64,000 nucleotides of DNA from an uncultured Tropicimonas sp. GTDB lineage: Bacteria > Pseudomonadota > Alphaproteobacteria > Rhodobacterales > Rhodobacteraceae. Made by a program: the position numbers and the translations under genes. The DNA is taken from contig CANLZY010000011.1 of NCBI GenBank assembly GCA_947495685.1, positions 1 through 64,000 on the forward strand. The letters run 5' to 3'. The notes beneath the pieces are model-generated. The model searched no databases, had not been told where the DNA came from, and saw nothing but the letters and a program-made list of their open reading frames with translations. Positions 16,030-26,902 of the stretch are shown here, piece after piece. Numbering within the stretch: position 1 is the first letter of the stretch; the number at the start of each line of letters is the position of its first letter.

Positions 16030-18756
16030 TCAGACACCATGGTCCCCTGAGACCGAGGTCTCCGCCACAGGGGCACGGGGGGGCGTTGGCTCGTACTGCG
16101 ATGTCCCTTGCAACGCTCCTGCCAGCAGGGTCATCCAGTCCCCCAATGCGGGTTCGGTCATCATCCCGAGATGGCTTGCCTCGACAATTCGCATGTCCGC
16201 AGGGCCGGCGAGGAGCGAGGCCCAGACATCAGACCGTTCCTCCCTGTGCGTGAACACCGCCAGACAGGTCCCGTCGTAGGGCAATGCCACGTAGTCCCGG
16301 GCCAGCCTGCCAGCCGCAAACCAGAATGCCGGCCAACGATTGCGAGGCAACAGCAGGCGCGTCAGCCGTCCCGGCCGCCGCCCATGCAGATCGACAAGCG
16401 TGTAGGACAGGTGACGCCAGAGGCGGGCACGCTGGAGTTCTCGCGTGACAAGCCTGCGGGTCGGTCCGACCTGATTGACAGGGTCGCGGACCAACGCCGC
16501 CAGTTGCCGCCGTATCCGCCCGGCCGGTGACACCTGCGCAATACCGGGTGCGGTCTCGACCAGATCGGACCCGGAGGATTGAAAGCGGACCGGCATCATC
16601 GGATCCAGCAGAAACAGAAGTTCCACCTCTTCTCCGGCCCGCCGAAGCTGTTGCGCAATCTCCAGTGCAATCAGTCCACCCATCGAATACCCGCCCAGCC
16701 GATACGGCCCTTCGGGTTGAATTTGACGGATCTCGGCCAACTGCGCCCGGACCAGTTCGGCAATCGAGTTCGCCTTGATGAAACCCGTTCCGTGCGCCCA
16801 TTGCGTCAACGCAAACAGCTGGCAGTCCGGCGTCCAGCGACCGGGGCGGGCCAGCGCCAGGTCGATATTGCTGAAAAAGAGCGGTGGACCCGCCCCTTCC
16901 CGGACCAGTGGAAAGACGACGCGTCGATTGCGAAGGTCATCGGGCTGCGCACGCGCATTGTCGATACGTCTTGCAAAGTCGAAAAGCCTTGGTGAGTCCC
17001 AGATGATGTTCGGATCGAGTTGAACTTCGAACGACCGCTCGGCGTCCTGGATCATCGAGATCGCCGACAAAGAGTCGCCACCGACAGAGAAAAAGTGCGC
17101 GTCGTTGGTGATGCGATCGAGGCCGAGGTTGCGCTCCCAGATCTGCGAAAGGCGCGCTTCCGTCTCCGACATGGTCATCGATCTCAGATACCCCGGCTCG
17201 ATTGGCACGACGTCGTGGGCAAGCGCCTCCCTGACCGCCTGTCGGTCGATCTTTCCGCTCGCCGACAGTGGCAAGCGCTCCATCGCCACGAAACGCGATG
17301 GCACAAGCGATCGGGGCAGAAGTTCGGACAGTGCCGCGTGCAATTTCTCGAACGGCATCGCCCTGCCCGGTTTCCAGACAACCGCAGTGACGAGGCCGCG
17401 CGCGCCGGACGTGGTTTCAAACCACGTGGCTGCCGCCTGATCGACGTTCGGGATGCGCATCAGGGCGACGTCGATCTCGCGCGGTTCGATCCGAACGCCG
17501 CGCACCTTTATCTGATCGTCATCGCGGCCGAAGTAGTGCAGGATTCCATCGGCATCCCGCATCGCAAGATCGCCGGTCCGGTAGTGGCGCGCCCCGTCGT
17601 GCCCCAGCGCGATGAACCGGGTTGCGGTCAGGTCCGGTTTGCCACGATATCCCCGCGCAACACCGGCGCCGCCGACAAACAACTCGCCCGTGGTGCCATC
17701 GGGAACCGCCGCGCCGGTTTCATCGACAATGGTTGTCGCGTACCCCTTCAGCGGCGTTCCGATCGGTGCCGAGATCGTGGACGCCAGCGCATCCCCTGCC
17801 CCCTCGTCGTGCAGGCGGTGTCCGGTTGCCCAGACCGTGATTTCGGTCGGGCCGTACAGGTTCCACGCCACTTGTGCGACCTGTGCCAACTGCGCAGCCA
17901 GCGCCGGCGATACGGCCTCGCCGGTGGTGATTGCAACCTTGAGGGGCGCCGTCAGATGACCGCTCGCCACAATGATGGACCAGGAAGATGGGCCCAGTTG
18001 AACGACAGTAACGGCGTGGGCCGCGATATCCGCGCACAACCGCGCCGGATCCAGCAACAGCGAACGATCCCTGAGCAGCAGGCTTCCCCCCGTGATCAGG
18101 GGCAGGAACAATTCGACGACCGACACATCAAACGCAATCGTCGCCACCGCGAGATACCGGTCGCTTTCAGTGAACTCGATCAGCTCGCAGGCGGACAACA
18201 GCAGATTGACAAGCTGCCTGTGCTCGATCTCCACCCCCTTGGGGGCTCCGGTGCTGCCAGAGGTGAACAGAACGTAGGCCAGGCGATCATGCCCCGGAGC
18301 GCACTCCGTGGCCTGCCCTGTCGCCCCGGCAACGATCAACCCGGCGGGATCGATCATCGCTGGCAACGGGCTTGCAACCGCAACCTTCCGTATGTCCGCC
18401 ATGGCATCCGGGGGCGCAACCAGCAGGCGGCACTCCGCGATCGTCAGAATTTGGCATGCGCGCGCGGGCGGGTCGTCGGGGTCGATCGGCACATAGGCCA
18501 ATCCACACCAGTGAATGGCCAGCAGGAGCGCAACCATGTCGCCGTCCCGCGACAGGCGGACCCCGACCGTAGATTCCGGCGGCAGGTCCTGATGTGCAAG
18601 CCCTCTGGCAAATTCGAACATCCGGGCCAGCAGCGCATCATAGGACCATTCACGCTCCGCAACGATGGCCGTTGCATTGGGGGTTGTCCGCGCCTGACGC
18701 TCGAACAACACGGCCAGATTGGCGCCGTGATCCTCTGTTGCCGCCAGGTCCGTCAT
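16030..18756 (-). CDS. Single-module NRPS: adenylation, carrier, thioesterase
   Basis: The 908-residue protein lacks a condensation domain. Residues about 1-510 form the adenylation domain: A3 FTSGSTGAPKGVEIEH near 165, A4 FDVSVVELF, A5 NLYGPTEITVWA, A7 YRTGDLAMRDADG, A8 VRGVRIEPREID and A10 PLSASGKIDRQ with the catalytic Lys. Residues about 530-600 are a carrier domain with the phosphopantetheine serine in FFSVGGDSLSAIS. The rest is a type I thioesterase with GYSMGG near 689, LLFLDPM (Asp) and a terminal SHLGMM (His). It should activate one amino (or related) acid, hold it as a thioester and release it. The ATG at 18756 overlaps the P450 stop (ATGA), so the P450 most likely acts on the tethered substrate. 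Confidence 0.88.
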   Translation of the reverse strand: MTDLAATEDHGANLAVLFERQARTTPNATAIVAEREWSYDALLARMFEFARGLAHQDLPPESTVGVRLSRDGDMVALLLAIHWCGLAYVPIDPDDPPARACQILTIAECRLLVAPPDAMADIRKVAVASPLPAMIDPAGLIVAGATGQATECAPGHDRLAYVLFTSGSTGAPKGVEIEHRQLVNLLLSACELIEFTESDRYLAVATIAFDVSVVELFLPLITGGSLLLRDRSLLLDPARLCADIAAHAVTVVQLGPSSWSIIVASGHLTAPLKVAITTGEAVSPALAAQLAQVAQVAWNLYGPTEITVWATGHRLHDEGAGDALASTISAPIGTPLKGYATTIVDETGAAVPDGTTGELFVGGAGVARGYRGKPDLTATRFIALGHDGARHYRTGDLAMRDADGILHYFGRDDDQIKVRGVRIEPREIDVALMRIPNVDQAAATWFETTSGARGLVTAVVWKPGRAMPFEKLHAALSELLPRSLVPSRFVAMERLPLSASGKIDRQAVREALAHDVVPIEPGYLRSMTMSETEARLSQIWERNLGLDRITNDAHFFSVGGDSLSAISMIQDAERSFEVQLDPNIIWDSPRLFDFARRIDNARAQPDDLRNRRVVFPLVREGAGPPLFFSNIDLALARPGRWTPDCQLFALTQWAHGTGFIKANSIAELVRAQLAEIRQIQPEGPYRLGGYSMGGLIALEIAQQLRRAGEEVELLFLLDPMMPVRFQSSGSDLVETAPGIAQVSPAGRIRRQLAALVRDPVNQVGPTRRLVTRELQRARLWRHLSYTLVDLHGRRPGRLTRLLLPRNRWPAFWFAAGRLARDYVALPYDGTCLAVFTHREERSDVWASLLAGPADMRIVEASHLGMMTEPALGDWMTLLAGALQGTSQYEPTPPRAPVAETSVSGDHGV

Positions 18757-20072
18757 TGCACGCCGTTGCTGCACAGGTGGTGGGGCGTCAGCTCTGGCAC
18801 AAAGGTCGAGGCCGGTTCCCAATGATAATGGCCGCGAACGGCAGGGCCATCGCCGCGCGCGGCCACCCGGTAGTGCCGCGCCAGTTCGGACAGAAACCTC
18901 GCGCCAAGCTGGATCGAATAGGAGCCGAACGGGCATTGATGCCGGTCGAGGCCAAACGGCGCAAAGCGGTCCGACCCCGGGCGCGCCGACAGGAAACGGC
19001 CGGGGTCAAAGGTGAACGGCGCCTCGAACAGGTCGTCGGACTTGTGGGATTCCCAGATGCACAGCCGAAGGTTGGTTCCGCGTGGAAACAGGAAACCGTC
19101 AAAGACGAAGTCCCGCTTGACCCGTCGCACCAGCCGTTCGGATTGTTCCATCCGCAGCGCCTCCATGACGAAAGCCTCGGCAACCTCGGTCGCGCCGTCG
19201 TCTGCTAGGGCGATACGCTCCATCCAGTCCGGGTTGCGGGATGCAAACCACGTCAACCAGCGGAAGAAGGCCGCCATGTCATAGCGCCCCATTTCCACCA
19301 TGTAGATCAGGTTGCCGAGCATGACCGGATCGACCTCCCCGTCATGAACCAACCCGGCCAGGACCGAGGGGCGGGCGTCTGCGCGCGCTGCAATCTGTTC
19401 GGTCAATCCGCGAATGATCAAGGACAGGTCAGCATAGGCACGCTGCTGACGCGCCGCGATGTTCCAGACAAGGCCACGGCCACCCAGGTCTTTGTACGCC
19501 GCCACAAGCCGCTTGTGAGCGTCCTCGTCGGGCGTGGTTCCAAGGACCACCCCCAGCAAGACGTCCGTAACAAGGTCGGACAGCATCGCGCGATAGGCCG
19601 CAGCGGCGTCCGGCAGGTCGGTGCGATCCTTCAATCCCGCAAAACGGCCCGCGACCGCCAATGGTGGCGTCTCAGCGGCGCCGCGGCCCTGCGCCTTGAT
19701 CGCGCGCACCAACGCCGCCCGATACCGGTGGTGATCCTCGCCCTCCATCTGGCGCAACAGTCCTTTGTCGAACAGCGTGCCAACAGACAGCGTGACCGGG
19801 CGCAGATCCTGTTCGTGGGTTCCAACCAGCCGGCGGCACACCGGCAGGCCGACAACATAGATCCAGAACCCGCCCCATGCGCGCCCCTTGAAAATCGGGC
19901 CATTGGCAACCGCGTGGTCCAGCAGCGCATGTCGGTCTGCCTGTTCCACGATGTCCAGCGTCGGTGAAAACGGTCCGGGCGGCAACGGCGTCCGGCGCAG
20001 CCAGGACATACCGATGCCCCGTGCAATAGCCCAATCAGGCCGGGAGGTCTTGCGAAACCGGGATGAAGACAT
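18753..20072 (-). CDS. Divergent cytochrome P450
   Basis: The product of about 439 residues has the P450 heme-thiolate segment FAPFGLDRHQCPFG (Cys near residue 378), a K-helix EALRMEQ (ExxR) and HYRAALVRAIK after the C-helix. Two consensus positions differ: the Gly four residues before the Cys is Asp, and the I-helix reads MGRYDMAAF in place of AGxxT, so the oxygen-activating acid-alcohol pair is missing. Such changes occur in P450s with unusual chemistry or peroxide use. Its stop overlaps the NRPS start. In NovH/NovI and NikP1/NikQ systems, P450s next to A-T proteins beta-hydroxylate the carrier-bound amino acid; the same is inferred here. No clear Shine-Dalgarno marks the start; 20072, 20084, 20090 and a GTG at 20117 are all possible. 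Confidence 0.82.
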   Translation of the reverse strand: MSSSRFRKTSRPDWAIARGIGMSWLRRTPLPPGPFSPTLDIVEQADRHALLDHAVANGPIFKGRAWGGFWIYVVGLPVCRRLVGTHEQDLRPVTLSVGTLFDKGLLRQMEGEDHHRYRAALVRAIKAQGRGAAETPPLAVAGRFAGLKDRTDLPDAAAAYRAMLSDLVTDVLLGVVLGTTPDEDAHKRLVAAYKDLGGRGLVWNIAARQQRAYADLSLIIRGLTEQIAARADARPSVLAGLVHDGEVDPVMLGNLIYMVEMGRYDMAAFFRWLTWFASRNPDWMERIALADDGATEVAEAFVMEALRMEQSERLVRRVKRDFVFDGFLFPRGTNLRLCIWESHKSDDLFEAPFTFDPGRFLSARPGSDRFAPFGLDRHQCPFGSYSIQLGARFLSELARHYRVAARGDGPAVRGHYHWEPASTFVPELTPHHLCSNGVQ

Positions 20073-21665: not shown

Positions 21666-22544
21666 TCATGTCGATCGCGGGGCCTTGGGCGCAGGCCCGG
21701 TCACACAGGCAGCCATCAGCCGATAGACGATCTGGGCCGTGGTGAAGTCCCAGGCCGGGTTGCCGTCCGGGGCCAGTTCTACCACGTCGAACCCGACACA
21801 GCGACGTCCTTGCAGGGCATGTTCAACGAGGTGCAGTGCCTGGTAGTAGTTCAGCCCCCCGGGGACAGGCGTGCCCGTCGCCGGCATCTGAGACGGGTCG
21901 AGCCCGTCAACGTCAAAGCTGACATAGACCAGGTCGGGAAAATCCTGCGGCAGGTCGACCGCGTGGCGGTTTCCGGTCACCAGTTCCTCGGCGTCGACAT
22001 GGAAAACGTTGTTCTTCACGCGGCTTTCGGCCTCTTGCGAGCAGAGGGCCCGCACGCCGAACTGCGCCAGCGGAATCCCCTCTTCGGACAACAGGTGCAT
22101 GACGGACGCGTGCGAGTGTGCTTCGCCCTGATAGGCGACCCGCAGATCGGCATGGGCGTCGATCTGCACAATCCCGACGGGCCGGTCCAGCGCCCTGGCA
22201 ACCCCGATCACCGCGCCGTAGCTGAGCGAATGTTCCCCGCCCAAAGTCACAGGCACCTGCCCCTGCCGCACGGCGGCTTCGGTACGTTGCGCAAGGCGCT
22301 CCATCACCATTGGCAGCGGGCCGTCGCAGTCCAGCGACGGTTCGGTCCGGATGCCTTGCGCGCAGGGCTCGATGCCTTTGCACAGGCGCTCAAGCTCGTT
22401 TGAGGCGTCGAGGATCGCCGCCGGCCCGGCGGCGGTTCCCGAGCCATAGGACACGGTCCGCTCCAGGGGCACCGGGATCACCCGAAACAGGGCATCCTGA
22501 CCGCGCTCGGACTCTGTCAACTCACTGTCCAGAAAGATGCTCAT
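21666..22544 (-). CDS. speB: Agmatinase (ureohydrolase family)
   Basis: The 292-residue enzyme has the three manganese-binding motifs of ureohydrolases: GGEHS near residue 102, DAHADLR near 128, and SFDVDGLDP near 210. It hydrolyses agmatine to putrescine and urea. It is the last of four polyamine genes on this strand; its ATG overlaps the TGA of the decarboxylase gene (ATGA). With SpeA encoded upstream in the same cluster, agmatinase is a better call than arginase or guanidinobutyrase, though the sequence alone cannot fully separate these. Confidence 0.87.
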   Translation of the reverse strand: MSIFLDSELTESERGQDALFRVIPVPLERTVSYGSGTAAGPAAILDASNELERLCKGIEPCAQGIRTEPSLDCDGPLPMVMERLAQRTEAAVRQGQVPVTLGGEHSLSYGAVIGVARALDRPVGIVQIDAHADLRVAYQGEAHSHASVMHLLSEEGIPLAQFGVRALCSQEAESRVKNNVFHVDAEELVTGNRHAVDLPQDFPDLVYVSFDVDGLDPSQMPATGTPVPGGLNYYQALHLVEHALQGRRCVGFDVVELAPDGNPAWDFTTAQIVYRLMAACVTGPAPKAPRST

Positions 22545-23701
22545 GACAGGCGCTCCTTGAAATCGTCATATCCGAAGTGGCGAACGACCCGCAGATCGTC
22601 CGTCCTGCTGTTCCACAGCAGGATCGTCGGCAGGGGAACGCCGTTGAAGGTGTTTGTCTTGACCATCGAGTAATGCGCCTGATCCAGAAACGCGAAACGG
22701 TCTCCAAGCTTGAGCGGTTGTTCGACCGTGTAATCCCCGATCACATCCCCGGCCAGACAGGACGGGCCGCCAAGTCGATAGCTATGACCGGTTTCGACCT
22801 CGCCCAGCATGGCGGGGCGGTAGGGAGCCTCGATCACGTCGGGCATGTGGCAGGTGGCCGAAATGTCGGTGATGGCAAGGTTCACCCCGTTCTGCGGCAG
22901 GTCGAGCACCTCCCCGACAAGGATGCCGGCATCCAGCGCAACGGCCTCGCCCGGTTCCAGATAAACCTCGACGTCGTAGCGGTTGCGGATTTCCCTTATG
23001 AAGGCAATCAGCGCCTCGCGGTCATAATCCGCCCGGGTGATGTGATGCCCGCCGCCAAAATTCACCCACTTCAGTTCCGCGAGATAGGGCAACAACGCCG
23101 GTTCGATCGCTGCCCAGGTCCGTTGCAGCGGCGCAAACCCCTGCTCGCACAGCGTATGCATGTGCACCCCGTCCACGCCATCCAGCGTCGCGGCCGTCAG
23201 TTGGCTGATTGGCATCCCAAGGCGTGAACATGGCGCGCAGGGGTCGTATTTGGCGACCTCCCCCTCGGAATGCTCCGGATTGATCCTCAGCCCGACCTGA
23301 ACACCCGCCGCCTGACATCTGGCCAGAAAGCGGTCCTTCTGGCTGGGGCTGTTGAAGATGACGTGATCCGACAGGGCAATGATCTCGTCGATTTCACTGT
23401 CCTTGTAGCCGGCGCAAAAGGTGGCAACCTCACCGCCGTATTCTTCGCGGGCCAGCCGCGCCTCGAAGATCCCGCTGGCACAGGTGCCACCAAGGTATTG
23501 ACGCACCATCGGCGCAAGCGCGAACATCGAAAACGCTTTCAGCGCGGCCAGGACGTGGGCACCGGATCGCTCGGCCACGTCGGCCAGGATCATCAGGTTC
23601 CGCTCGACCGCCACGTCATCGACCACGAAAGCCGGTGTCGGAACGCGGGACAGGTCGAAATCTTGAAAGGCGCCAGCGTCACCGGCCTGGGTGGTCATCA
23701 T
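22541..23701 (-). CDS. nspC: Carboxy(nor)spermidine decarboxylase
   Basis: The 386-residue PLP enzyme is of the fold-III (alanine-racemase-like) decarboxylase group. VLAALKAFSMF near residue 52 holds the PLP lysine, VNFGGGHHI near 210 the phosphate-binding glycines, and GPSCLAGDVIGDY near 305 the CxxxD substrate motif of NspC. It decarboxylates carboxyspermidine to spermidine (or carboxynorspermidine to norspermidine). Because the cluster makes putrescine, spermidine is the likely product. It ends in an ATGA overlap with speB. A hairpin lies between it and the upstream dehydrogenase gene. Confidence 0.88.
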   Translation of the reverse strand: MMTTQAGDAGAFQDFDLSRVPTPAFVVDDVAVERNLMILADVAERSGAHVLAALKAFSMFALAPMVRQYLGGTCASGIFEARLAREEYGGEVATFCAGYKDSEIDEIIALSDHVIFNSPSQKDRFLARCQAAGVQVGLRINPEHSEGEVAKYDPCAPCSRLGMPISQLTAATLDGVDGVHMHTLCEQGFAPLQRTWAAIEPALLPYLAELKWVNFGGGHHITRADYDREALIAFIREIRNRYDVEVYLEPGEAVALDAGILVGEVLDLPQNGVNLAITDISATCHMPDVIEAPYRPAMLGEVETGHSYRLGGPSCLAGDVIGDYTVEQPLKLGDRFAFLDQAHYSMVKTNTFNGVPLPTILLWNSRTDDLRVVRHFGYDDFKERLS

Positions 23702-23748
23702 GTCGGAGGCTTTCGGGTCAGCTGAGGGAAGGGCGTCATGATCGGCGG

Positions 23749-23772
23749 CGGCCCGGCGTTACCGCCGGGCCG
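23749..23772 (-). terminator. Intercistronic hairpin in polyamine cluster
   Basis: CGGCCCGGCG (23749-23758) pairs with CGCCGGGCCG (23763-23772) around TTAC, a 10-bp perfect GC-rich stem between the dehydrogenase stop and the nspC start. No T-run follows, so attenuation or mRNA stabilisation is more likely than complete termination. Confidence 0.6.
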
Positions 23773-23778
23773 GTGGTC

Positions 23779-24990
23779 TCAGAACGTCACGGGGCCATCC
23801 AGCTCGTGAACCTGCCAGGGAAGACCGTGGCCATTGAGCATGTCCATGAAGTCATCAGGATCGAGCTGCTCCATGTTCCAGACACCGGGCTCGACCCAGT
23901 TGCCCTTGAGCACCTGCGCAGCCCCGATCATGGCCGGCACACCTGTGGTGTAGCTGACGGCCTGGCTGCCGACTTCGCGGAAACATTCCTGATGATCGCA
24001 GATGTTGTAGATGTAGAAGGTCTTCTCGCCCGAACCATCCAGCGCCTGACCCGTGGCGATGTCACCGATGCAGGCCTTGCCGGTGGTCTCTTCGCCCAGA
24101 TCACCGGGATCGGGCAGCAGGGTTTTCAGGAACTGGATCGGAATGATCTCGACGCCGTTGTGCATCACCGGATCGATCCGGGTCATGCCGACGTTCTCCA
24201 GCACCTTGGCATGCATGATATAGGCGTCGCCAAACGTCATCCAGAAGCGCGCGCGTTCGATCTCCGGGAAATGCGTCGACAGGCTTTCCAGTTCCTCGTG
24301 ATACATCAGGTACATGTTCTTTGGACCGATGCCGGGGAAATCGTACTCGACCTTGTGGGTCATCGCAGGGCTGACCTGCCACTCCCCGCCCTCCCAATGG
24401 CGGGCTTCCTGCAGCACTTCGCGCAGGTTGATTTCGGGGTTGAAATTCGTCGCGAAGGTCTGGTCGTTCGAGCCGCCATTGGCGTCCAGCACGTCGATCT
24501 GGCGAATGGTGGCCAGCTTGTGCTTTTTCAACCAGGTGGCGAACACGCTGGTCACGCCCGGATCAAAGCCGGAGCCCAGAATGGCGGTCAGGCCAGCGGC
24601 CTTGAATCGCTCCTGATAGGCCCACTGCCAGTGGTATTCGAACTTTGCGACATCCTCGGGTTCGTAATTCGCCGTGTCGAGGTAGTGACAGCCGGCCTCC
24701 AGGCAGGCGTCCATCAGGGCAAGATCCTGATACGGCAGCGCAAGGTTCACCAGAAGCTCGGCGCCGGTGTCACGGATCATCGCCACGGTGGCGGCCAGGT
24801 CCATCGCGTCCAGCGCGGCGGTTCTGATCTCGACCCCGGTGCGGTCCTTCACGCTTGCAGCAATGGCATCGCACTTGGATTTCGTGCGGCTGGCCAGGGT
24901 AATCTCGGTAAAGATATCGGCGTTCATCGCCATCTTGTGCACCGCAGCGTGACTCACGCCGCCCGCGCCCACGACAAGTAGCTTGCCCAT
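23779..24990 (-). CDS. Carboxy(nor)spermidine synthase/dehydrogenase (saccharopine dehydrogenase family)
   Basis: The 403-residue NAD(P)-dependent enzyme begins with the Rossmann motif LLVVGAGGVSHAAVHKMA and follows the saccharopine-dehydrogenase fold: LVNLALPYQDLALMDACLEAG near 83, HYLDTANYEP near 104 and ILGSGFDPGVTSVFA near 140. Family knowledge: it reductively condenses aspartate semialdehyde with a diamine (putrescine here) to give carboxyspermidine. The ATG at 24990 has AAGGAGA eight bases upstream, which decides it over an earlier in-frame start. It lies between speA and nspC on the same strand, which supports the carboxyspermidine role over lysine metabolism. Confidence 0.87.
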   Translation of the reverse strand: MGKLLVVGAGGVSHAAVHKMAMNADIFTEITLASRTKSKCDAIAASVKDRTGVEIRTAALDAMDLAATVAMIRDTGAELLVNLALPYQDLALMDACLEAGCHYLDTANYEPEDVAKFEYHWQWAYQERFKAAGLTAILGSGFDPGVTSVFATWLKKHKLATIRQIDVLDANGGSNDQTFATNFNPEINLREVLQEARHWEGGEWQVSPAMTHKVEYDFPGIGPKNMYLMYHEELESLSTHFPEIERARFWMTFGDAYIMHAKVLENVGMTRIDPVMHNGVEIIPIQFLKTLLPDPGDLGEETTGKACIGDIATGQALDGSGEKTFYIYNICDHQECFREVGSQAVSYTTGVPAMIGAAQVLKGNWVEPGVWNMEQLDPDDFMDMLNGHGLPWQVHELDGPVTF

Positions 24991-25012
24991 GGTGATCGTC
25001 TCCTTCCCGGGG

Positions 25013-26902
25013 TTATTCATAATAGGTATAGCCGTTGATCGAGTTCCTGTAGGCCCCGATCAACAGCTTGCGTTCGCTGGCTTTCACCGACCCGTTCGAA
25101 ATCGCCTCGTCCACCATCTTGCGAAAGGCGGCGACGCAATCGTCCGGGTCATATTCGACATAGGACAACACTTGTGAAATCGTGTCGCCTTCCTGTTCGT
25201 GCAGCAGGTCGAACCCACCATCGGCCCGCAGGTCAATGGTGACCACGTTGGTGTCCCCGAACAGGTTGTGCAGATCGCCCAGCGTTTCCTGGTAGGCGCC
25301 GACAAAGAACACCCCCAGATAATATCGTCCCTCTTCGGGCAGGGAATGCACCGGCAGCGACGGTGAGATACCGTCGGCCAGAATGAACCGATCGACCTTG
25401 CCGTCGCTGTCGCAGGTGATGTCGGACAGGATAGCGCGGCGGTCGGGTGTCTGGTTCAGCATCTGCAACGGCACGATCGGGTGCAGCTGGTCAATGGCCC
25501 AGACATCCGGCAGCGACTGGAACAGCGAGAAATTGCAGTGATAGACGTCGGCCACATTTTCAAGCTGCTCTTCCAGTTCGCTCACGTCGTCCAGGGTCGC
25601 GACAATCGACTTGATCCGCGCGGTCAGCGACAGATAGATCCGTTCGGCCCGCGCCATCTGGCGCAAATCCACCACGCCCCTGCGAAACAGCGCCCGCAGT
25701 TCATCCCGGTAGAACGACGCGTCGTTCCAGCACTCCTGCACCCGCCCGGGCACCAGGTAACCGCTTACCGCAGCCAGGTCGGCGACAAGGTGGTGGTCGT
25801 CCGGCTGGACCTCCGGTGCGTCGGGCGCATCGTACAGCGTGGTCTCCAGCACGTCGAAGATCAACATGGAGGAGGTCGCAACCACCGCACGACCACTTTC
25901 CGTAACCAGAACAGGATGCACCATCTCGGCCTCGTCCATCGCGTAGCCGACGGTTTCCACCACGTTTGCGCAGTATTCCTCGACCGTGTAGTTGATCGAG
26001 TTTTCAGCGGCCCGCTTTTCGCCCGTGTAGTCCACGCCCAGACCGCCGCCCAGATCCAGATGGGTCAGCGGCGCGCCCTCGCGGGAAAGCTCGATGAAAT
26101 ACCGGCAGGCCTCGTCGGCAGCGCGGCGCACGTCCCGGACGTCGGGCACCTGGCTGCCGAGGTGCGAATGCTGCAATTGAAGACAGTGCAACAGGTTTTC
26201 CTCTTTCAGGCGATCGACCACCCTCAGCAACTGGTCGGTGTTCATGCCGAACGTCGATCTGTCACCCGAGCTTTCCTGCCACTTGCCGCCGATCCGGTTG
26301 GTCAGCTTGACCCGCACGCCCAGCAAAGGCTCCAGTCCCAGTTCGCGGGTCACCTCGATGACGGTTTCTGCCTCCTTGGGGCTTTCAAGCACGATGACAC
26401 AGTTGAACCCCAGCCGACGCGACAGGATGGCGAGCCGAATGAACTCGGCATCCTTGACGCCGTTGCAGACGATCAGGGCGTCCTTGGACAATCGGTGCGC
26501 CAGCGCGATGACCAGTTCGGGCTTTGATCCGGCCTCAAGTCCAAAGTCGTACGGGCGTCCGAACTCCACGATCCGGTCGACCACCTGTGCCTGCTGGTTC
26601 ACCTTGATCGGAAAGACACCGCGATACGGAGCCTTGTAACCAACCCGGCTGATGGCGTTGGAAAAGCTTTCGTTGATGTGGCGGATCTCGCTTTCGAGGA
26701 ACGAGCTGACGCGCAACAGAAGCGGTGTCACCACGCCGCGCTGTTCCAGATCCTGCAGAATGCCCGGAAGGCTGATCGGCGGTGCCCCGTTGCGTGCCGG
26801 ATCGCACAGCGCGATCTCGCCGTCGGGCGTGACGGTGATCAGGCCCTTGCCCCAACGGTCAACACCATAGAGGGTCTCGGAGTGCGTAGGGTTCTGTTTC
26901 AA
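25013..26902 (-). CDS. speA: Biosynthetic arginine decarboxylase
   Basis: The 629-residue PLP enzyme matches biosynthetic SpeA in length and motifs: GVFPIKVNQQAQVVDRIVEFG near residue 98 (PLP lysine in KVNQ), GLEAGSKPELV near 120, HLDLGGGLGVDY near 280, TESGRAVVA near 325 and ITCDSDGKVDRF near 507. It converts arginine to agmatine, the first step of the pathway completed by the next three genes. The start is a TTG at 26902 with AAGG about nine bases upstream; no in-frame ATG gives the conserved N-terminus (YGVDRWGKGLITV). It is the first gene of the cluster. Confidence 0.88.
   Translation of the reverse strand: MKQNPTHSETLYGVDRWGKGLITVTPDGEIALCDPARNGAPPISLPGILQDLEQRGVVTPLLLRVSSFLESEIRHINESFSNAISRVGYKAPYRGVFPIKVNQQAQVVDRIVEFGRPYDFGLEAGSKPELVIALAHRLSKDALIVCNGVKDAEFIRLAILSRRLGFNCVIVLESPKEAETVIEVTRELGLEPLLGVRVKLTNRIGGKWQESSGDRSTFGMNTDQLLRVVDRLKEENLLHCLQLQHSHLGSQVPDVRDVRRAADEACRYFIELSREGAPLTHLDLGGGLGVDYTGEKRAAENSINYTVEEYCANVVETVGYAMDEAEMVHPVLVTESGRAVVATSSMLIFDVLETTLYDAPDAPEVQPDDHHLVADLAAVSGYLVPGRVQECWNDASFYRDELRALFRRGVVDLRQMARAERIYLSLTARIKSIVATLDDVSELEEQLENVADVYHCNFSLFQSLPDVWAIDQLHPIVPLQMLNQTPDRRAILSDITCDSDGKVDRFILADGISPSLPVHSLPEEGRYYLGVFFVGAYQETLGDLHNLFGDTNVVTIDLRADGGFDLLHEQEGDTISQVLSYVEYDPDDCVAAFRKMVDEAISNGSVKASERKLLIGAYRNSINGYTYYE

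Follow-up and report, generated by a model that had tools for sequence, protein, structure and literature searches.

A coupled cytochrome P450 and single-module NRPS gene pair, probably for a modified small amino acid, in an uncultured Tropicimonas sp.

The P450/NRPS pair and its domains

The window analysed here, a stretch of 64,000 nucleotides from an uncultured Tropicimonas sp. (Rhodobacteraceae; contig CANLZY010000011.1, positions 1 to 64,000), possessed two overlapping genes on its minus strand: a cytochrome P450 gene (18753-20072) and, second in the pair, a gene for a 908-aa non-ribosomal peptide synthetase (NRPS; 16030-18756). The former was identified from its open reading frame (ORF), the Pfam p450 profile, an AlphaFold2 model and fold matches in the PDB, and the latter from its ORF, Pfam, TIGR01733 and a structural model. 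The stop of the P450 gene lies over the start of the NRPS gene in the sequence ATGA (18753-18756), with the NRPS ATG at 18756-18754 and the P450 TGA at 18755-18753. This overlap, together with the conservation of the pairing described below, upholds the single translationally coupled unit proposed in the initial annotation, and the pair is very probably a genuine functional unit.

The P450 is 439 aa long when read from its ATG (454 aa if translation began at an alternative GTG, 20117). It scored 61 bits against Pfam p450 (cut-off 22.8), and no NCBIfam model exceeded its own cut-off, the top one, ApyO, reaching 43 bits where 525 are required, so the enzyme was rightly called divergent. Its AlphaFold2 model (mean pLDDT 86.4) showed an ordinary P450 fold against the PDB, and the Pfam score, the fold, Cys380 and the ExxR motif place it in the P450 superfamily. 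The closest known enzymes were CYP120A1, CYP90B1 and CYP51 by fold and CYP175A1 by sequence; identities in the fold comparison were 14-19%, and the window P450 lacks AGxxT. These comparisons returned general P450 folds only and gave no hint of the substrate. No entry named NovI, NikQ or OxyD appeared in the best 60 of 161 PDB sequences or among the 50 fold matches listed, which does not amount to an exclusion.

Relatives were sought by scanning genome contigs with the window P450, and 22 were found. NLIYMVEM occurs in every one, and five other search patterns in not a single one, so this stretch is invariant because it served to select them, and the family surely has further members. Alignments to CYP175A1 and CYP120 placed the I-helix motif GNLIYMVEMGRYD at residues 253-265 (19278-19316), with Asp265 at the conserved Thr of the canonical AGxxT, Arg263 at its first x and Glu260 just before it. 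The acid-alcohol pair of that motif, which is typical but not universal among P450s, was absent: MGRYD aligned with AGHET, the canonical A-G-x-E/D-T being replaced by M-G-R263-Y264-D265, preceded by E260. These three residues (E260, R263 and D265) were identical in 24/24 aligned rows, one of them from a Mesorhizobium relative obtained independently of the search pattern; 22 of the 24 rows had been caught by that pattern, itself part of the I-helix motif. Among the relatives obtained by protein or profile search instead of the pattern, L059 and L087 kept E, R and D, L088 had I, K and D, and L086 had E, Q and D, and from these alignments D265 appears to be the most firmly conserved of the three. 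The divergent relatives L088 (5265-6590) and L086, both from metagenome bins, each carry one in-frame stop and were read as found.

The other P450 motifs were also well conserved. ExxR (Glu304-Arg307; 19152-19163) and the proximal Cys380 (codon 18935-18933) of the heme-binding segment PFGLDRHQCP (18930-18959) occurred in 24/24 rows, Asp376 and Phe382 occupying the positions of the two Gly of the classic heme motif. The C-terminal HWEP motif (residues 417-420; 18813-18824) had its His417 in 23/24 rows, the sequence of L023 ending before it.

The NRPS has the domain order adenylation-carrier-thioesterase (A-T-TE), with no condensation (C) domain. Scored in a longer 968-aa frame, it reached 230 bits for AMP-binding, 42.5 for PP-binding, 79.5 for Thioesterase and 353.8 for TIGR01733 (cut-off 317.4); its model had a mean pLDDT of 80.9, and EntF (5ja1) was the first Foldseek match. 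The A domain (17218-18717, ends approximate; TIGR01733, 353.8 bits) carries the pocket code DVVQITLVWK, read by alignment and motif. The T domain (16963-17154; PF00550, 42.5 bits) carries Ser562 (codon 17073-17071), a Ser found in 15/15 rows reaching this position. With the A-domain core motifs, Asp235, Lys517 and this carrier Ser, the protein possesses what an amino-acid-activating A-T module needs. The thioesterase-like domain (16102-16917, ends approximate; PF00975, 79.5 bits) has the triad Ser691-Asp718-His862 and matched its profile partially (25-117 of 226), with FFSNID in place of the usual HPAGG.

Conservation of the pair, its pocket and its release domain

An NRPS with an A domain lay directly 3' of the P450 in 15 of the 22 relatives (L004-L008, L010, L011, L013, L014, L016-L019, L021 and L022), a pairing beyond chance; in six of them (L007, L008, L014, L016, L019 and L022) the genes overlapped by ATGA. 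In a tree of 33 A domains, 15 of the 16 from pairs, the window's included, formed one clade (100/100; stem 0.73), while that of L017 was placed outside it or unsurely and the other 17, from the same genomes, fell apart from it. P450 and A-domain tree distances were correlated (r = 0.79, 15 pairs; 0/5000 permutations as high), also with one pair per lineage (r = 0.66, 8 lineages; 28/5000 permutations). An NRPS always found without such a P450 is the opposite of what these loci show, but all of them were found via the P450, and the searches started from the NRPS returned the seed genome only.

The records holding the pair were labelled Pseudomonadota, Verrucomicrobiota, Actinomycetota and Cyanobacteriota, although most are metagenome bins whose phylum labels may err. 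The four loci nearest to the window (L004-L007; P450 identity 49-59%) belong to the Alphaproteobacteria, judging by their labels or placement. Genomes with the pair are rare: only the window's genome matched among 394 family genomes sampled with the P450 and among 398 phylum genomes sampled with the NRPS, and only the seed genome matched in the verrucomicrobial samples (1/286 by P450, 1/223 by NRPS). Within the genus, the family P450 profile gave a full match in 1/9 genomes (the window's), four partial matches (4.5e-12 to 3.1e-11) and none in the remaining four. The Rhodobacteraceae-type pairs showed no shared neighbourhood, as 0 of 8 neighbouring proteins of the window matched L004, L005 or L007 at 1e-15 (L006, 6 kb long, fell outside this comparison), and the best matches in the genus to the neighbouring DUF900 protein were not located with other window neighbours. 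The sporadic spread combined with the constant pairing fits a cassette moving as a unit, and the pair is probably mobile.

The pocket code of the window recurred almost unchanged in several relatives, with DIVQITLVWK in L004-L007 and DIAQITLVW in L013, L014 and L016, so that D[IV][VA]QITLVW was present in 7/15. Codes varied in L008, L010, L011, L017, L018, L021 and L022, and one position was unreadable in L019; L017, outside the A-domain clade, still reads DIPQVTLVW. The pocket segment found its two best PDB matches in DhbF module 1 (5u89; 7.9e-25) and AB3403 (4zxh; 3.5e-17), both of which presumably activate glycine. These are larger proteins with C domains and have GG at 300-301, where the pairs have T-T or S-T; residue 301 was Thr, as opposed to the Gly of glycine codes, in 15/16 rows (Met in L018). 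Five A domains joined the pair clade at one fork (L045, L046, L048, L049 and L091, from the window's own genome), with the codes DILQLGMIW (from the large NRPS of that genome), DILQLGLVY, DILQLGLIY, DILQIGLVW and DIAQWGLIW. DILQVGLIWK, to which the code was identical at 5/10 positions in the window and 6/10 in the DIVQITLVWK relatives, is predicted to specify glycine in P. larvae DhbF and is said to be identical in B. subtilis DhbF1 (excerpts of PMC4169593), and DILQLGMIWK is given as a glycine code in excerpts of PMC12283262. From this pocket sequence, and chiefly from its match to DhbF, the A domain is predicted with moderate confidence to activate glycine or something of about its size.

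Release was far less constant. The Ser-Asp-His triad was kept in 10 of the 14 rows having a TE domain (the window and nine others); all three residues were lost in L018 and L022, which retain the domain nonetheless, L008 has Cys-Glu-His, and L019 is unreadable past a frame break. An apparent luciferase-type domain fused to the L019 NRPS was rejected, since the TE continues in another frame and the downstream gene is joined by the frame break. In L010, L011 and L018 a C domain follows A-T-TE in the same ORF, suggesting that the loaded unit is passed on; the second module of L010 reads DAFWLGGTF, presumably a valine-type code. The initial annotation was right to place a TE on the NRPS, but the free product drawn from it is unsafe, the triad being lost in two relatives and a C domain following in three, with L018 showing both. 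A constant P450/A-T core with variable release is as expected if the core makes a building block.

In the window, no gene of a biosynthetic-cluster type was found among the neighbours of the pair, in line with what had first been noted. On one side lie genes for an acyl-CoA dehydrogenase, an amidohydrolase, an acyl-CoA synthetase, a MarR regulator, an enoyl-CoA hydratase and a short-chain dehydrogenase/reductase, and on the other a DUF900 hydrolase gene followed by arginase/agmatinase-type, decarboxylase, saccharopine-dehydrogenase-like and arginine decarboxylase genes; the neighbours are thus catabolic or polyamine-type genes plus the DUF900 hydrolase. The last four (21666-26902) are likely a carboxynorspermidine/polyamine operon. 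Composition showed no clear break (GC 0.61-0.67 in segments between 14 and 22 kb), and no promoter or terminator scored above shuffled sequences. The genome possessed two matches to the phosphopantetheinyl transferase family. Besides the A domain of the pair, two more exceeded the TIGR01733 cut-off, and these share one 3283-aa frame on contig 1.

Some observations concern P450 relatives in other settings. On a Mesorhizobium jarvisii plasmid (L026:11965-14255), a relative with 30.6% identity overlaps a GT2 glycosyltransferase gene, and four further Mesorhizobium plasmid records were found. Two verrucomicrobial bins possess a second P450 of the same family (L059:8807-11035 and L087:8688-10040), a TauD-type dioxygenase gene following the L059 paralogue. 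Near the P450, two Opitutaceae and one gammaproteobacterium share a protein of one similarity cluster (L013:6704-8122, L020:8243-9478 and L021:6646-8088), of which the L013 member is a sulfite-oxidase-type molybdenum enzyme by Pfam.

Candidate reactions of the pair

In the reading favoured here, the two genes would form one stand-alone and probably mobile biosynthetic unit. The A domain would activate glycine, or another amino acid of comparable size, and load it on the carrier, the P450 would oxidise the tethered aminoacyl unit, and the TE-like domain, or in some relatives a C or other release domain, would pass the product of this oxidation on, whether to water, to an acceptor or to a downstream module. 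Oxidation at the nitrogen would give an N-hydroxy and then an oximino group; at the alpha carbon it would give an alpha-hydroxyglycyl or glyoxylyl unit, or an oxidative coupling. Beta-hydroxylation has no place in this scheme because a beta carbon is missing from glycine. A carrier-bound substrate is plausible, and judging from their position the acidic I-helix residues may face an amine-bearing substrate above the heme. We assign a probability of about 0.45 to the P450 acting on a carrier-bound glycine-like unit, at nitrogen or alpha carbon and not at a beta carbon. A fuller version remains doubtful as a whole: a new P450 family, with Asp for the oxygen-activating Thr and with acidic I-helix residues, would oxidise carrier-bound glycine, and the oxidised glycyl block (N-hydroxy/oximino or alpha-oxidised) would be released, transferred or, as with the valine-type module of L010, extended, by a self-contained cassette present across four phyla. 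The pair probably makes a modified small amino acid, and in its details the product still cannot be guessed from the window, as the initial annotation stated.

Several results weigh against a P450 dedicated to carrier-bound glycine. Seven of the 22 P450s have no adjacent NRPS (L009, L015, L020, L023, L024, L025 and L012, whose contig ends there), and five of the 22 genomes gave no NRPS match at 1e-60, so this type of P450 may act without a carrier-bound substrate. All seven keep E260, R263 and D265, and all but L023, which ends too early, keep HWEP or HWQP. On the P450 tree, whose backbone is partly unresolved, L009 and L015 lie inside the NRPS-bearing part and L020 and L023-L025 outside it, the NRPS label needing four changes. 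On the NRPS side, Thr301 in place of Gly means that specificity may have moved, Gln278 is lost in L010, L011 and L021 (and unreadable in L019), and support is weak (92/67) for the fork at which the glycine-type domains meet the pair clade; the same fork holds L017 as well as L051 and L054, whose DS[AV]LIAEVW is a histidine-type code according to excerpts of PMC12283262. Furthermore, a xanthine dehydrogenase (XDH) gene immediately precedes that of the P450 in six loci (L009, L010, L011, L012, L015 and L020), in Verrucomicrobia and one gammaproteobacterium, with gaps of -23 to +7 bases depending on the chosen starts, and a glycosyltransferase or TauD-type gene lies beside other relatives; such neighbours are not explained by glycine alone. 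All six XDHs possess GGKE, RHP and GEPP, that of L015, when scanned, passes the NCBIfam xdhB cut-off, an XdhC-type gene lies beside XDH in L009, L010, L015 (this locus checked by family search) and L020, and in four genomes (G399, G400, G405 and G410) the XDH beside the P450 is the only match at 1e-60. This adjacency is an unexplained hint of a link to purine oxidation. The NRPS-less relatives and these neighbours fit a P450 whose substrate is a small molecule in free form (purines or other polar heterocycles are one candidate). The NRPS would then be one conjugating partner among several: A-T-TE would attach glycine or another small aminoacyl residue to the hydroxyl or amine so formed, and elsewhere a glycosyltransferase would act instead, as the gene overlap in Mesorhizobium may suggest. 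XDH was, however, rejected as a constant partner, as it was not seen next to the P450 in the remaining 16 loci (only 196 upstream bases are available in L014) and gave no match at 1e-60 in 3 of the 15 genomes searched, and the relatives are mostly metagenome bins; a free substrate seems unlikely, though it is the foremost rival to oxidation on the carrier.

Tethered beta-hydroxylation after the manner of NovH/NovI or NikP1/NikQ, the analogy drawn initially, would suppose an amino acid larger than the code suggests. It shares the gene logic of an A-T protein with a P450, seen in the window and 15/22 relatives, and Asp235 and Lys517 point to an alpha-amino acid as substrate; at position 301, Thr deviates from glycine codes, and the two histidine-type A domains sit at the same weak fork. 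The fit is nevertheless poor, as the pocket is nearest to glycine types (5/10 to 6/10 positions, with DhbF the nearest solved pocket), Trp331 and Gln278 would leave little room, and the acid-alcohol pair typical of P450s is missing, all of which makes this reading improbable. The same I helix might instead indicate a peroxygenase, dehydratase or coupling enzyme within the unit, in which Asp at the Thr position and the adjacent Arg would replace normal oxygen activation. Conservation of D265 in 24/24 rows and in L059, L087, L088 and L086 points in this direction, but P450s without this Thr can hydroxylate all the same, and such a departure, the least probable of the alternatives, can be compatible with oxidation of a carrier-bound glycine-like unit.

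Relation to known systems

P450/A-T pairs are mainly known from larger clusters, to which they contribute beta-hydroxylated building blocks, and in NovH/NovI, NikP1/NikQ, BpsD/OxyD and Qui18/Qui17 a carrier-held amino acid is oxidised by the partner P450. The window pair is a variant of this pairing. In the polyoxypeptin pathway, according to excerpts of PMC3943440, a discrete set (PlyC/D/Q/I/S) is accompanied by the P450 PlyR, with discrete TEs proposed for release. All these systems activate an amino acid and keep it on a carrier while a partner P450 oxidises it, as proposed here, but they belong to larger clusters and act on the beta carbon, whereas the present pair is stand-alone and combines a glycine-like pocket, an E-x-x-R-x-D I helix and variable release. 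N-hydroxylation in polyoxypeptin biosynthesis is proposed for an FAD enzyme in the same excerpts. In glycine modules with a monooxygenase (MOX) domain, carrier-bound glycine is oxidised and the code is DILQLGMIWK; according to excerpts of PMC12283262, MOX is part of the module, whereas the window pair has a separate P450 and no upstream chain. No report of a pair of the window type, or of three pocket codes of such pairs, was found among the open-licence papers that the searches listed.

If the favoured reading is true, a stand-alone pair that recurs in distant bacteria and combines a glycine-like pocket with an atypical site of oxygen activation and with exchangeable release domains would provide a new entry to small oxidised amino acid metabolites, in a two-gene unit small enough for a direct test in a laboratory host.

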